This document shows positions 30,984 to 54,023 of a stretch of DNA of 64,000 nucleotides, piece by piece. A program made the translations under genes and the position numbers. Within the stretch, counting starts at the first letter, position 1; each line of letters starts with the position of its first letter. Below the pieces are notes generated by a model. That model did not search any database, was not told the origin of the DNA, and saw only the letters and a program-made list of their open reading frames with translations. The DNA lies in NCBI GenBank assembly GCA_017454915.1, contig JAFTCC010000064.1, forward strand, positions 1 to 64,000, read 5' to 3'. The stretch comes from Paludibacteraceae bacterium (GTDB taxonomy: Bacteria; Bacteroidota; Bacteroidia; Bacteroidales; Paludibacteraceae).

Positions 30984-31112
30984 GCACAAAAATAGCCGTG
31001 GGAGAAAACCCACAGAACACGGAAACCACCCATTTTATTAGCCCCGTAGGGGCGGAACATAATTAGCCGTGGGTGAAGCGAAGCGGAACCCACGGAACAC
31101 AGAAAACACCAA

Positions 31113-31305
31113 TTTTATTAGCCCCGTAGGGGCGGCACAGAAAAGCAAAAAGGTTGTGACGCCGCTAACGCGGCTTGAATATGATGGTGCGATGCGTACC
31201 GCGGGTTACGTTCGCTGGCGCTCACTGCACCCACGGCTAACATTGTGTCACCGCTAACGCGGTTTTCGACGCAAACAACAAATCTATTCCAGCCCCACAG
31301 GGGCG
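31113..31305 (+). repeat. 193-bp direct repeat, copy B
   Basis: Second copy of the repeat at 30791-30983, in the same orientation, differing at a few positions. Together the copies form a composite REP unit larger than the simple palindromes, suggesting a recent local duplication. Confidence 0.85.
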
Positions 31306-31447
31306 AAACAAATATAGCCGTGGGTGAAAAACCACGGGACACGGAAAAAACCAATTTTATTTAGCCCCACAGGGGCGGCATAAATGCAAAAAAAAATTAC
31401 GCCCCGAAGCATTATGCTTGAAAGTATAATGGAAAAACATAAAATAT

Positions 31448-31478
31448 TTTGCGAAAACAAAAAAAGTCATTATATTTG
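31448..31478 (+). promoter_or_regulatory. Promoter of leader RNA copy 1
   Basis: TTTG at 31448-31451, 19 bp, then TATATTTG at 31471-31478, a full match to the Bacteroidota consensus. Transcription should start near 31485. Confidence 0.85.
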
Positions 31479-31484
31479 CAAAAA

Positions 31485-31708
31485 ATAATACGCTATGACG
31501 TAGATACGATACAAATAGAACGACAGATATAAATAAAGCGTTAGCTTTGTTCTCACTTAGTAAAAATCGCCAATTTTTATAACGCAGATGAGAAGTAAAG
31601 TTCAACGCTCACATCACACTTGATGTGGGCTTTACTTTTTGTTCATCTGCAGCGGTGTTTGGCGATACCTTTACTAAGTGGACTAAAAAGTTTGGTCCAC
31701 TTTTTTTA
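31485..31708 (+). ncRNA. Structured leader RNA with terminator, copy 1
   Basis: About 224 nt between a consensus promoter and an intrinsic terminator. Nested helices: P1 CTTAGTAAA/TTTACTAAG (31556-31564 with 31670-31678), P2 ATCGCCAA/TTGGCGAT (31566-31573 with 31659-31666), P3 GCAGATGA/TCATCTGC (31584-31591 with 31643-31650), P4 AAGTAAAG/CTTTACTT (31593-31600 with 31630-31637), P5 CACATC/GATGTG (31610-31615 with 31622-31627). The P1 3' strand overlaps the terminator 5' arm by 3 nt. A close relative lies at 52852-53099. Similarity continues beyond the terminator toward the start codon of the next gene, favouring a cis-acting attenuator over a free sRNA. It may belong to a catalogued Bacteroidales RNA motif; I cannot confirm which. 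Confidence 0.8.
31676..31707 (+). terminator. Intrinsic terminator ending leader RNA copy 1
   Basis: AAGTGGAC (31676-31683) pairs with GTCCACTT (31695-31702), followed by a run of seven T from 31701. It lies 106 bp before the start codon of the first downstream gene, so read-through is required for that gene unless a second promoter exists. Confidence 0.85.
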
Positions 31709-31813
31709 TGCCATAGCGCGACAACGGACCGGTGACACGCCGAAAAACCACAACAGAGTAGGCACCAACACATTTCCTCCGCAAGTGGCGGCGGACAAAC
31801 CGCCACACAACAC

Positions 31814-32521
31814 ATGAAAAAACTATTTTCACTTTTCGCAGCACTGCTCATAGGTGGTGCTGTATGCTTGGCAGAAGATGTAGAGCTCACATCGGGCGAC
31901 GTGCATTTCTTCAAAGATCCCGCTAACTACGCAATTTTGGAGATTGACTGGTCAAAAACACATGTAGTGGAATTCGGAGCCAACAACAAGGTTAAGAACG
32001 ACTTGGGCAGCATTGACGAGTTCAACCGCTCGCAAGGCGAAGACTGGGTTCGCGACTGGCCCGCTGTTCAGGCTTCGGTGCTACTGTCAAACACTATGAA
32101 GAAATTTTTCTTCAACAAAGCCAACAAGAAAGGCATGCATATCGTAGCCCCGCAGCAGGTATGGGATGCATACAACAACGGCACTCTGGTAGGGAAAAAC
32201 CGCACCTCAACCGAGAAAAACTACTACCTGATAGACCCTGCCACAGCACAATACAAGATTGTAGTACACATAGACCTCGTTGACATGGGCAACACAGGAG
32301 CCTCTATTGTGTTCGGCGGCGGACTGGCCAGCAAGGCAGGCGGAGCAAAAATAATGGGGTACATTGACTGCATCGACCTGCGGACGAACAAGAGCGCAGC
32401 ACAATTCGTAATCAACGACACACGCGGTGAAGGTGGCTGGACTCAAGCCATTAGGCTCGGCAACGTCATCGCACAATGCCTCGGCGTGGAAGTCATGAAA
32501 ATTATTAAGAAAACAAAATAG
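31814..32521 (+). CDS. Exported protein of unknown function, first gene after leader RNA copy 1
   Basis: A 235-residue protein with a signal peptide (MKKLFSLFAALLIGGAVCLA, cleavage before EDVELT). I do not recognise the family with certainty. The mature part has alternating beta and helical segments, with a glycine-rich stretch (VFGGGLASKAGGAKIMGYIDCIDLRTN) of the kind seen in envelope proteins of the DUF4410/curli-assembly-like type; this resemblance is weak. It starts at ATG 31814 and is followed 18 bp later by the first of three paralogues on the same strand, so it likely leads an operon controlled by the structured leader upstream. Confidence 0.85.
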   Translation: MKKLFSLFAALLIGGAVCLAEDVELTSGDVHFFKDPANYAILEIDWSKTHVVEFGANNKVKNDLGSIDEFNRSQGEDWVRDWPAVQASVLLSNTMKKFFFNKANKKGMHIVAPQQVWDAYNNGTLVGKNRTSTEKNYYLIDPATAQYKIVVHIDLVDMGNTGASIVFGGGLASKAGGAKIMGYIDCIDLRTNKSAAQFVINDTRGEGGWTQAIRLGNVIAQCLGVEVMKIIKKTK

Positions 32522-32539: not shown

Positions 32540-33274
32540 ATGAGAAAAGCAGCGTCCTTTTTCTTTGTTTTCTTTTTTGCCTTCGCCTCTGCAGTCACAG
32601 CACAGGATGTGTTAGTCATGAGAGATGGGAACAGCGTGAACGGCAAGGTGATTGAGATTTCTGATGTTAGTGTCAAATACCAATCCCAAACTGCAGACGC
32701 ACAAACTATAACAATAAACGCCGAAAACATTGAAAGCATAGTTTTCAGCAACGGCACCGTGAAAGTCTTTACTCATGCTCAGACTGAACAATCATTAGCC
32801 GCATCACCTCAAAAGATTGCTTACATAGACAAGTTCAGCGACCACTACCTGATGGGGGACAAACGCATGAACGAGGATGAGTACATGAAATTCCTGAAGC
32901 AGCATTGCCCCGAAGCGTACAAAAGCCACGAAAGCGGCAAAAAGTTGGCCAAGGCTGGCTGGGTATGTTTAGGCATAGGGGGCGGCATAGGTGTAGTGGG
33001 AAGCGTATTGTGGGGAGCATATTTCAACAGTGCCGAAGGCTGGTACTGGGGCGACTACAAAAGAGGAAGCAAAGAAAAGGTACTGGCAGGCGTGGCGCTC
33101 ACGTCTGCCGGAACAGCAATACTTACTGTCAGCGTGCCATTGCTGACAGTGGGATACGCCAGAAAGAACAAGTCGCACGTAATATATAACAACTATTGCG
33201 CGCGGCAAAACACTCCTGTCGCTCTCACACTCAAGGCAAAGACTGACGGAATGGCGGTAGCAATAAATTTCTAA
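32540..33274 (+). CDS. Paralogue 1 of a tandem trio of exported membrane proteins
   Basis: A 244-residue protein of unknown function. After a signal peptide (cleaved near AVTAQ-DVL) comes a small beta domain (VMRDGNSVNGKVIEISDVSVKYQ ... VFSNGTVKVF, about 20-78), a common Bacteroidales module without known role. A charged linker (DKFSDHYLMGDKRMNEDEYMKFLKQHCPEAY) leads to two hydrophobic segments (WVCLGIGGGIGVVGSVLWGAY and LTSAGTAILTVSVPLLTVGY) and a short basic/polar tail. The C-terminal half is almost identical to paralogue 2, while the N-terminal domain differs clearly from both neighbours. It lies 18 bp after the preceding exported-protein gene. Confidence 0.88.
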   Translation: MRKAASFFFVFFFAFASAVTAQDVLVMRDGNSVNGKVIEISDVSVKYQSQTADAQTITINAENIESIVFSNGTVKVFTHAQTEQSLAASPQKIAYIDKFSDHYLMGDKRMNEDEYMKFLKQHCPEAYKSHESGKKLAKAGWVCLGIGGGIGVVGSVLWGAYFNSAEGWYWGDYKRGSKEKVLAGVALTSAGTAILTVSVPLLTVGYARKNKSHVIYNNYCARQNTPVALTLKAKTDGMAVAINF

Positions 33275-33305
33275 CAGATAACCAACTTTCTAATTCTAAA
33301 CAAAT

Positions 33306-34046
33306 ATGAGCAAGAGGACTCTAACAACAGCAGTTTCATTGCTCCTGTGTGCGCTATACATAGCCGCACAGGATGTCATCATCACGCTTGACGAGAAGCG
33401 CATAGAGGCCAAAATCACCGAGGTGTCGGACACAGAAATCAAATACCGCGACCCCAATATCCCTGGCGGACCGCAGTTCGTAATGGGAGTGGACAAACTC
33501 AATACCATTATCTACAGCAACGGCACCGTGAAAGTCTTTACTCATGCTCAGACTGAACAACCAGCAGCCGCCTCACCGCAAAAGACTGTTTACATAGACA
33601 AGTTCAGCGACCACTACCTGATGGGTGACAAACGCATGAACGAGGATGAGTACATGAAATTCCTGAAGCAGCATTGCCCCGAAGCATACAAAAGCCACGA
33701 AAGCGGCAAAAAGTTGGCTAAAGCGGGCTGGGTATGCTTAGGCACTGGCGCAGTCTTGGGCGTAGTGGGAAGTGCGCTGTGGGCAACATCTTACGATCAC
33801 AGTTACGGCGGAGCATGGATATGGGGTGAATATGATAAGCACCAAGGCAAAGGGCTGACCGGCGTGGTGTTCACGTCTGCCGGAGCCGCATTACTTACTA
33901 TCAGCGTGCCGCTGCTGGCAGTGGGATATGCCAGAAAGAACAAGTCGCACGTGATATATAACAACTATTGCGCGCGGCAAAACACTCCTGTCGCTCTCAC
34001 ACTCAAGGCAAAGACTGACGGAATGGCGGTAGCAATAAATTTCTAA
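33306..34046 (+). CDS. Paralogue 2 of the trio, apparently chimeric
   Basis: A 246-residue protein with the same architecture: signal peptide, beta module (ITLDEKRIEAKITEVSDTEIKYR), charged linker, two hydrophobic segments. Its first 77 residues match paralogue 3 (MSKRT-TTA-SLLLC-LYI-AQD, EVSDTEIKYRD), whereas everything after NGTVKVF matches paralogue 1, including a nearly identical 3' end of the gene. The switch falls in a stretch shared by all three (AGCAACGGCACCGTGAAAG, about 33516-33534), as expected from recombination or gene conversion. It was probably made by unequal exchange between its neighbours. Confidence 0.88.
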   Translation: MSKRTLTTAVSLLLCALYIAAQDVIITLDEKRIEAKITEVSDTEIKYRDPNIPGGPQFVMGVDKLNTIIYSNGTVKVFTHAQTEQPAAASPQKTVYIDKFSDHYLMGDKRMNEDEYMKFLKQHCPEAYKSHESGKKLAKAGWVCLGTGAVLGVVGSALWATSYDHSYGGAWIWGEYDKHQGKGLTGVVFTSAGAALLTISVPLLAVGYARKNKSHVIYNNYCARQNTPVALTLKAKTDGMAVAINF

Positions 34047-34077
34047 CATATAACCAACTTTCTAATCCTAAACGAAT

Positions 34078-34833
34078 ATGAGCAAGAGAACTTTTACAAC
34101 AGCAATTTCACTACTTCTGTGTGTGCTATACATAACCGCACAGGACATCATAGTCACGCGCGAGGAAAAGCGCATAGAGGCCAAAATCACCGAAGTGTCG
34201 GACACGGAAATCAAGTACCGTGACGCCAACAACCCTGACGGACCACTGTTTGTGATGGGTGTGGACAAAATCAGCACCATCATCTACAGCAACGGCACCG
34301 TGAAAGTCTTTGAGCAGGCGCAAGCACCTGCCATTAGCAGCCGCCCGCCCATGAGCGCACAATATCAGGCATCGCTCAACCGCGGACAGCAGACCCAGAT
34401 GGGCGGCACGGAAATGATAAGCCGCTATGACGAATACTACATAATGGGCAACGAACGCATGAACGAAGATCAGTACTTGCGCTTCGTCCAGCAAACATGC
34501 CCGGCAGCCTATGCAAGCTATCAGAAAGGCAAGAAACTCTGGGGCATGGGCTGGGGGTTCTTCGCAGCAAGCCTCGCATGCCTTGCCGGGGGCAGCACCA
34601 TGTACAGCATAGGCCGTAACGAAGGAACACCGGGACTGGCGATACCAGGCGCAGCACTGATTGGCGCAGGATCCGGATTCTTCTGTGCATCCATTCCTTG
34701 CATGGTAGTGGGAAAAATCAGAAAAGACAATTCTCACGAAATCTACAACTCCGCTTGCGTTAGAAAAAGCAACCCCTACTCGCTTAACATCGGTTACGGG
34801 GGCAACGGAGTCGGACTTGCCTTTGCATGGTAA
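34078..34833 (+). CDS. Paralogue 3 of the trio
   Basis: A 251-residue protein: signal peptide (cleaved near YITAQ-DII), the same beta module (VTREEKRIEAKITEVSDTEIKYRD), then a longer Gln/Ser-rich linker than its neighbours, a related charged motif (YDEYYIMGNERMNEDQYLRFVQQTCPAAY), and two hydrophobic segments (MGWGFFAASLACLAGGSTMY, ALIGAGSGFFCASIPCMVVG). The C-terminal half is more diverged than that of paralogues 1 and 2. The spacer before it (about 31 bp) is nearly the same as that before paralogue 2, so gene plus spacer were duplicated together. Function unknown. Confidence 0.88.
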   Translation: MSKRTFTTAISLLLCVLYITAQDIIVTREEKRIEAKITEVSDTEIKYRDANNPDGPLFVMGVDKISTIIYSNGTVKVFEQAQAPAISSRPPMSAQYQASLNRGQQTQMGGTEMISRYDEYYIMGNERMNEDQYLRFVQQTCPAAYASYQKGKKLWGMGWGFFAASLACLAGGSTMYSIGRNEGTPGLAIPGAALIGAGSGFFCASIPCMVVGKIRKDNSHEIYNSACVRKSNPYSLNIGYGGNGVGLAFAW

Positions 34834-52813: not shown

Positions 52814-52845
52814 TTTGGTGAAAACAAAAAATATGTGTATCTTTG
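52814..52845 (+). promoter_or_regulatory. Promoter of leader RNA copy 2
   Basis: TTTG at 52814-52817, 20 bp, TATCTTTG at 52838-52845; start near 52852. It plays the same role as the promoter at 31448-31478 for copy 1. Confidence 0.82.
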
Positions 52846-52851
52846 CGAAAA

Positions 52852-53099
52852 TAAAAACGAAAAAATATAAGACAATGACATAGAAAACGTGAAATAATAC
52901 AAATAAATACAGATTTAAGCGTTAGCTTTGTTCTCGCATTCTAAAAAATCGCCAATTTTTTACAACAAAAAATGCAGATGAGAAGTAAAGTTCAACGCTC
53001 ACATCTTTTCGATGTGGGCTTTACTTGTTAGTTCATCTGCAATGGTGTTTGGCGATACCTTTAGAATGTGGGCTTAAAAAAGTTTAGTCCACTTTTTTT
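52852..53099 (+). ncRNA. Structured leader RNA with terminator, copy 2
   Basis: About 248 nt with the same plan as copy 1. The core GCGTTAGCTTTGTTCTC, ATCGCCAATTTTT, GCAGATGAGAAGTAAAG, TTCAACGCTCACATC and TTTGGCGATACCTTT are identical. P1 here is CATTCTAAA (52937-52945) with TTTAGAATG (53060-53068): compared with copy 1, three base pairs have changed on both sides. The P5 loop differs (ttttc against acactt). The terminator keeps pairing through a G-U. Downstream similarity (AGAGTAG...CAC.AACAC..., TCCGCA) continues toward the start codon. The 525-bp gap 52677-53201 holds this element, its promoter, and a duplicated TGTTGAATCTGCAA near 52780-52807. Confidence 0.8.
53068..53099 (+). terminator. 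Intrinsic terminator ending leader RNA copy 2
   Basis: GTGGGC (53068-53073) pairs with GTCCAC (53087-53092), one pair being G-U, followed by T7. It ends 103 bp before the next start codon, almost the same as in copy 1 (106 bp). Confidence 0.82.
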
Positions 53100-53201: not shown

Positions 53202-54023
53202 ATGAAGAAAACACTTTTAACAATTTTTGCCCTGTTTATGGTGTTGCTGCCCATGACAGCGCAGATTTCAGAGGGTGAACCCAACTCAACCGTAATTCCT
53301 CGCACGGGAAACCGTCCGCAGGCTGGTGACTGGGGTATCTACATTGGCGGTTCTGTTCGCCAAGTGATGGATCTTGTCAATGCCCATAAGGATGCTGGCA
53401 GTATTTTCATCGGTGACGTTCCTGGCGAGGTTGTAGACGGCTATGACTCTAACAACAATTGGTGGGGGCTACCAATCCTTAACCTCAAGTACTATGTAAC
53501 CAATCAGTGGGAAGTCCGTTTGGGCTTCGAATTCGCCAGCAAAACCTTGTCGAACAAGTATAAACTGGAAATCGGAGGCGACGACATTAAACGCAACAAC
53601 CGTGAGAGCCAGAACTTCACGCGCTTCCTTCCAGGTTTCGCCTACCACTTCAGCACCAAGAACCTTCTTGATGTTTACCTCGGCGCACAAATGCCTATTG
53701 GTTGGGATTCTTATCGTTCAAAACAGAAAGAGGATGCTGGCGGCGACGTTACCTACACCCGCAACACCTGCACACAGGCTGTTATCGGCGGTGGCGTATT
53801 CATCGGTCTGCAGGCTTTCATTGCCGACCTTCCGCTTGCCATTGGCGTGGAACTGGGATATTCTGGCCTCGCAAAAATAGGCGGCAACATGAAGACCACA
53901 CAAGACTTAGGTGACGGCAAGGAAGTATTCTACAACGACAATCCGAACCTTAAAAAGGCAATTTCAACTTCTGCCGAATGGGGTGCAGACGCCGCTATAA
54001 CTTTCTCATATTTCTTCCACTAA
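53202..54023 (+). CDS. Outer-membrane beta-barrel protein, first gene after leader RNA copy 2
   Basis: A 273-residue protein. ATG 53202 (MKKTLLTIFALFMVLLPMTAQ) starts a clear signal peptide; an in-frame ATG 30 bp upstream would spoil it. The mature part has glycine-rich and aromatic alternating strands (WGIYIGGSVRQV, YYVTNQWEVRLGFEFASK, VYLGAQMPIGWDSYRS, VIGGGVFIGLQAFIADLPLAIGVELGYSG) and ends ITFSYFFH, consistent with an 8- to 10-strand outer-membrane barrel of the OmpA-like/PorT-like size class. Function unknown. It begins an operon with two lipoprotein genes (spacing 21 and 4 bp). Confidence 0.82.
   Translation: MKKTLLTIFALFMVLLPMTAQISEGEPNSTVIPRTGNRPQAGDWGIYIGGSVRQVMDLVNAHKDAGSIFIGDVPGEVVDGYDSNNNWWGLPILNLKYYVTNQWEVRLGFEFASKTLSNKYKLEIGGDDIKRNNRESQNFTRFLPGFAYHFSTKNLLDVYLGAQMPIGWDSYRSKQKEDAGGDVTYTRNTCTQAVIGGGVFIGLQAFIADLPLAIGVELGYSGLAKIGGNMKTTQDLGDGKEVFYNDNPNLKKAISTSAEWGADAAITFSYFFH

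Follow-up and report, generated by a model that had tools for sequence, protein, structure and literature searches.

A Structured Leader RNA of Bacteroidota with Mutually Exclusive Helices: A Probable Conditional Transcription Terminator

Two Leader RNAs in a Paludibacteraceae Contig

The window, which is the whole 64,000-nt stretch analyzed here (Paludibacteraceae bacterium, contig JAFTCC010000064.1), carries two copies of a structured RNA, both encoded with their associated features on the plus strand. Upstream of copy 1 lies a Bacteroidota-type promoter (31448–31478), composed of TTTG at 31448–31451 and of the −7 element TATATTTG, which matches TAnnTTTG, at 31471–31478. A two-codon mini-ORF, ATG ACG TAG (31495–31503), recognized by its sequence and its enrichment in homologs, is located near the predicted 5′ end, and the RNA itself extends from 31535 to 31707. 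The first gene downstream (31814–32521) begins 106 nt past the U-tract and encodes an exported protein with no Pfam match. Three tandem paralogous exported proteins sharing the motif NGTVKVF, also without Pfam match, are encoded at 32540–34833; similar-looking proteins follow other leader copies of this genome (L071 and L073). Just 5′ of the promoter, positions 31000–31380 contain repeated palindromic units (agccccgtaggggcgg and variants). On the minus strand, there are weak matches to Acido-Lenti-1 (RF01687) that stay below threshold.

Copy 1 is predicted to form a long rod, whose closing helices are P1 (31554–31564 with 31670–31680), P2 (31567–31573 with 31659–31665), and P3 (31584–31591 with 31643–31650). 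Each P2 strand sits in the loop of a local hairpin, X (AAAAUCGCCAAUUUUU) for the 5′ strand and Y (GGU..ACC, 31654–31669) for the 3′ strand. Four strands have alternative partners or share one. Strand 1 (A, 31538–31554) has strand 2 as its partner in the predicted terminated fold, as indicated by covariation. Strand 2 (31590–31615), consisting of A′ (31590–31608) and the apical 5′ strand (31607–31615), has strand 1 or strand 3 as its partner, and strand 3 (B, 31622–31635), consisting of the apical 3′ strand (31622–31630) and the P4 3′ strand (31630–31635), has strand 2 or strand 4. Strand 4 (T, 31694–31700), which the U-tract follows up to position 31707, pairs with B and, in this copy, also with a local arm starting at 31678, positions 31678–31680 being common to this arm and to the 3′ strand of P1. 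The fold has a z-score of −6.9 relative to 200 dinucleotide shuffles, none of which was as stable. A first-pass annotation of the same DNA had described the consensus promoter, five nested helices (P1 to P5) followed by an intrinsic terminator, the 3 nt that P1 shares with this terminator, and the exported-protein ORF 106 nt further on; all of these were recovered in our analysis.

Copy 2 has the same organization. Its promoter and mini-ORF occupy 52814–52883, with TTTG at 52814–52817, TATCTTTG at 52838–52845, and ATG ACA TAG at 52875–52883. The RNA (52916–53099) comprises strand 1 (52919–52935), strand 2 from 52980, strand 3 from 53011, strand 4 (53086–53092), and a U-tract (53093–53099). The gene that follows (53202–54023) encodes an outer-membrane beta-barrel-like protein with a weak Pfam match.

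An RNA Family Widespread in Bacteroidota and Absent from Rfam

Both copies are members of one RNA family that has no counterpart in Rfam 15. By BLAST, we found three copies in this genome and matches in 12 other genomes among 60 relatives. A covariance model built from 15 sequences comprises 33 rod pairs, 21 of which show compensatory changes even in this small set. With this model, 11 copies were identified in the genome at E ≤ 1e-3, so that the conservation previously noticed at two envelope operons is real, the number two being too low. Within the host's own family, the model matched 112 of 150 genomes, and relatives carry up to 36–38 copies per genome once more candidates are scored. Under strict filters, the RNA is present in 33 of 149 genomes of a class-level sample and in 35 of 296 of a phylum-level sample.

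The exact 17-mer GGTGTTTGGCGATACCT occurs at no fewer than 119 loci in GTDB contigs, at least 110 of which carry the whole RNA. Among the matches listed, the loci with the whole RNA belong nearly all to Bacteroidota, including the genera Prevotella, Bacteroides, Alistipes, Phocaeicola, Flavobacterium, and Tenacibaculum, and one lies on a contig labeled Ignavibacteria; five listed loci labeled Pseudomonadota or Acidobacteriota lack the RNA. The carriers include the species Phocaeicola massiliensis and Bacteroides timonensis. The 17-mer was also found on 17 IMG/VR viral contigs. A mobile repeat or a plasmid or phage element was rejected as an explanation, as blastn gave no match in plasmid or phage collections, though at least 15 IMG/VR contigs carry copies. 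On the viral contigs (L273–L289), leaders precede genes; by eye, the product of the gene in L283 resembles restriction-system subunits. Elsewhere, two leader copies stand in tandem (L111, 201–362 and 564–727), their starts about 360 nt apart. In L065, L067–L070, and L073, we observed a divergent subtype with a low model score, in which strand 1 reads GGCGTTTATTGACGC and the apical part is longer.

The possibility had been raised that this is a catalogued Bacteroidales RNA such as Bacteroidales-1, and the Rfam scan does not bear it out. Over the rod, no Rfam 15 model reached its gathering threshold in copy 1 or the homologs, none had E < 1 in copy 1, and none matched the other copies. We thus discarded 6S-flavo, Bacteroidales-1, T-box, and all other Rfam 15 families. 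An overlap with Flavo-1 was likewise rejected: the copies from other families of the phylum have no Rfam match. Transcriptome papers on Bacteroides and Flavobacterium, in the portions available to us, refer to 5′ UTRs that are long or structured, to leader peptides, and to Flavo-1, and these portions describe no such RNA family (PMC7366714, PMC9723704). As a survey of the human microbiome contains thousands of anonymous structured RNAs (PMC8040213), parts of the RNA may be among its unnamed entries.

The elements of the leader are unequally conserved. The sequence of P2 varies completely among copies, with complementarity maintained (UCGCCAA/UUGGCGA, UUUGGCG/CGCCAAA, UUGGGGA/UCCCCAA, CUAGGAA/UUCCUAG), and its strands are flanked by the conserved GAAA..UUU of X and GGU..ACC of Y. 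Among 96 distinct sequences, 99.6% of the cells of the Y stem are paired, six of them being double changes. TAnnTTTG precedes 116 of 163 homologs, versus 5 of 164 in a downstream control window, and a U-tract directly follows strand 4 in 123 of 128 and 109 of 117 copies. ACATA is found ahead of strand 1 in 89 of 164 leaders (15 in a control window).

The mini-ORF is carried by 58 of 163 leaders. In the own-family set, AUG-NNN-stop occurs in 42 cases, versus eight and two in the neighboring frames and 13 in shuffles; GCCUAUG-NNN-UAA is a frequent form. Its AUG lies at a median of 26 nt past the −7 element, near the 5′ UTR lengths that are normal for Bacteroides (PMC7366714). The stop codon is located at a median of 35 nt 5′ of strand 1, which is further than a ribosome footprint.

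Three Helices Conserved between Competing Partners

In our alignment (A3), the strands of 1:2 and 3:4 shift by one or two columns. We therefore used partner-swap tests for these helices rather than column-wise counts, comparing the duplex energy of a strand with its own partner to that with partners from other sequences. With 94 dereplicated sequences, own-partner pairing was far better for 1:2 (z −18), 2:3 (z −19), and 3:4 (z −19), with 0 of 5,000 permutations reaching the observed value; the permutation preserves base composition and removes relatedness only partly, and the strand windows were defined by a hairpin heuristic on sequences from which related ones had been only partly removed. 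No own-partner advantage was found for 1:3, 1:4, or 2:4 in the same 94 sequences, and because these control pairs are flat, we argue that relatedness is not the cause of the signal. A second set of 73 sequences, whose sources were GTDB and viral contigs as well as further families of the phylum, repeated the result (1:2, z −16; 2:3, z −23; 3:4, z −16). The predicted helices 1:2, 2:3, and 3:4 and their topology are those of a classical 1-2-3-4 attenuator.

Fold predictions on 167 dereplicated sequences show how these helices combine. When 3:4 is forced, 1:2 remains in 159 sequences, and when strand 4 is blocked, the 2:3 rod forms in 162. As copy 1 is transcribed, 1:2 is predicted to appear before the apical hairpin, and the rod last. 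According to the nearest-neighbor model, which does not count a kissing contact, the rod is favored by a median of 7 to 10 kcal/mol; termination may therefore be the minority state unless a factor intervenes.

The switch had initially been placed in the overlap of P1 with the terminator. The overlap geometry itself was confirmed, and its role as the main switch was not: the terminator 3′ arm has B (31622–31635 in copy 1) as its conserved partner, and B is the stronger one in 163 of the 167 sequences. A switch relying solely on P1 overlapping a local terminator hairpin, for which the overlap in copy 1 and the weak swap signal of the local arm with T (z −5 and −4 in the two sets) can be cited, is highly improbable given this preference for B and given that no more than 17 of 167 sequences, copy 1 among them, have a strong local hairpin. 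In copy 1 and some relatives, this strong hairpin can coexist with a slightly shortened P1. In such copies, the P1 overlap may add a second layer of control.

Genes Located Downstream of the Leader

In 93 of 94 cases, the leader is followed by an ORF on the same strand, at a median of 76 nt past the U-tract. Among leaders having an ORF, TAnnTTTG is located 5′ of the RNA in 107 of 150 and between the U-tract and the ORF in eight of 150. With promoters sitting 5′ of the RNA and hardly ever in the gap from terminator to gene, the downstream genes most likely depend on read-through. By a crude rule, 70 of 93 downstream proteins look exported. Pfam searches on 139 of these proteins identified BspA-type LRR (11), TM2, HTH, LytTR, T9SS tails, PKD, and other domains, and no pathway common to the genes was found among them; PADLOC detected two type III methyltransferases. 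The proposed assignment to envelope operons thus holds insofar as most of the proteins look exported, but the leader is not confined to the envelope, as HTH regulators, methyltransferases, and LytTR proteins are also found downstream.

A Proposed Two-Fold Switch and Its Alternatives

The helices 1:2, 2:3, and 3:4 and the positions of the terminator and of the promoter are established computationally. On this comparative and thermodynamic basis, we consider it likely that the leader acts in cis to terminate transcription conditionally, by means of two folds that compete with each other. Fold I would contain 1:2 and 3:4, and the latter helix, which adjoins the U-tract, would act as the terminator. 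Fold II would instead contain 2:3, as the apical hairpin of a long rod that P3, P2, and P1 close; strand 4 would be left without a partner, and RNA polymerase would continue into the gene, fold II presumably being the one that switches it on. In the predicted course of transcription, 1:2 is the first of these helices to arise, and the rod would then displace it. As hairpins X and Y persist and hold the P2 strands in their loops, these loops may kiss in the terminated fold; P2 could start from such a contact and trigger the change of fold. In copies with a strong local terminator hairpin, such as copy 1, fold II would antiterminate only with P1 fully paired. A cellular signal, possibly a ligand, a protein, or translation of the mini-ORF, would set the balance between the folds. 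The role of termination-control leader proposed in the first-pass annotation is supported by the covarying, mutually exclusive helices and by the promoters placed 5′ of the RNA.

The promoter and intrinsic terminator would also suit a stand-alone small RNA gene preceding other genes by chance; in that case, termination would yield a stable RNA some 200 nt long. We consider this very unlikely, since a same-strand ORF lies close downstream in nearly all cases, a promoter between terminator and gene is almost absent, and the mutually exclusive helices involve the terminator strand.

Two further proposals are refinements of the two-fold terminator and concern the signal. In one, which has the same topology, a putative ligand bound at the P1/X/Y core would stabilize fold II, as in a metabolite riboswitch. 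The conserved flanks around freely varying P2 strands and the presence of up to 38 copies per genome speak for this possibility, but the lack of a common pathway downstream leaves it doubtful. In the other, translation of AUG-NNN-stop, or ribosomes released there, would govern access to strand 1. The in-frame enrichment of the mini-ORF and the near-normal distance of its AUG from the −7 element are in its favor; the limited number of leaders that carry the mini-ORF, its distance from strand 1, and the lack of a preferred second codon make this coupling unlikely. Amino-acid attenuation was rejected, as the second codon is mixed and shows no preference for one amino acid.

Bacteroidota is a dominant gut phylum in which few regulatory RNAs are known. 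We tentatively propose that the two-fold terminator represents a new, phylum-wide switch class, either an orphan riboswitch or a factor-controlled attenuator, that would coregulate dozens of surface, regulatory, and defense genes per genome, with AUG-codon-stop possibly serving as a translation sensor in some lineages. If so, one common RNA switch would govern many exported and accessory proteins of Bacteroidota through early termination. This would define a new RNA family, provide a sequence-level test of its mechanism, account for some of the long structured 5′ UTRs of the phylum, and make it possible to look directly for the ligand, protein, or translational cue.

Comparison with Known Systems

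Like the leader, classical attenuators of the trp type oppose 1:2 and a terminator 3:4 to an antiterminator 2:3 ahead of a regulated gene. In contrast to them, the antiterminator of the leader is embedded in the P1-P2-P3 rod, a peptide rich in one amino acid is lacking, and many copies per genome stand ahead of unrelated genes. A leader peptide with regulatory codons over strand 1 was not found, the mini-ORF being present in a subset of leaders and ending before that strand. The leader has no Rfam match to the model of Bacteroid-trp (RF01692), from the same phylum. It shares with riboswitches using terminator expression platforms a conserved structured core combined with an exclusive terminator and antiterminator, as well as many copies before different genes, but the genes it would regulate have no common metabolic theme. 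6S RNA and 6S-flavo (RF01685) also form a long rod with internal loops in Bacteroidetes; unlike them, the leader has no Rfam match, reaches tens of copies per genome instead of a single one, lies upstream of genes, and has an alternative fold with a terminator.

A DUF805b-Like Element Past the Terminator

A DUF805b-like element (RF02914) is located at 31729–31764 on the plus strand. DUF805b was reportedly defined by Weinberg in 2017. It is a separate 35-nt module that sits directly past the terminator of some leaders, including copy 1. The score in copy 1 (31.1 bits, E 5e-7) is below the gathering threshold of 35.6, which the homolog L018 reaches in its tail only, not in the rod. The GCC:GGC pair covaries, with 15 of 19 full pairs versus six in shuffles. 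The element forms the 3′ tail at the six best leader sites of this genome and follows about 17 of 165 leaders, or about a tenth. That it is generally a fixed 3′ tail of the leader was rejected: 25 of 29 DUF805b loci found across the order have no leader RNA. In L006, L070, L073, and L061, as in the window, the element looks like a small pseudoknot formed by GGA:UCC and GCC:GGC. It lies near start codons and also occurs alone in many Bacteroidales genomes.
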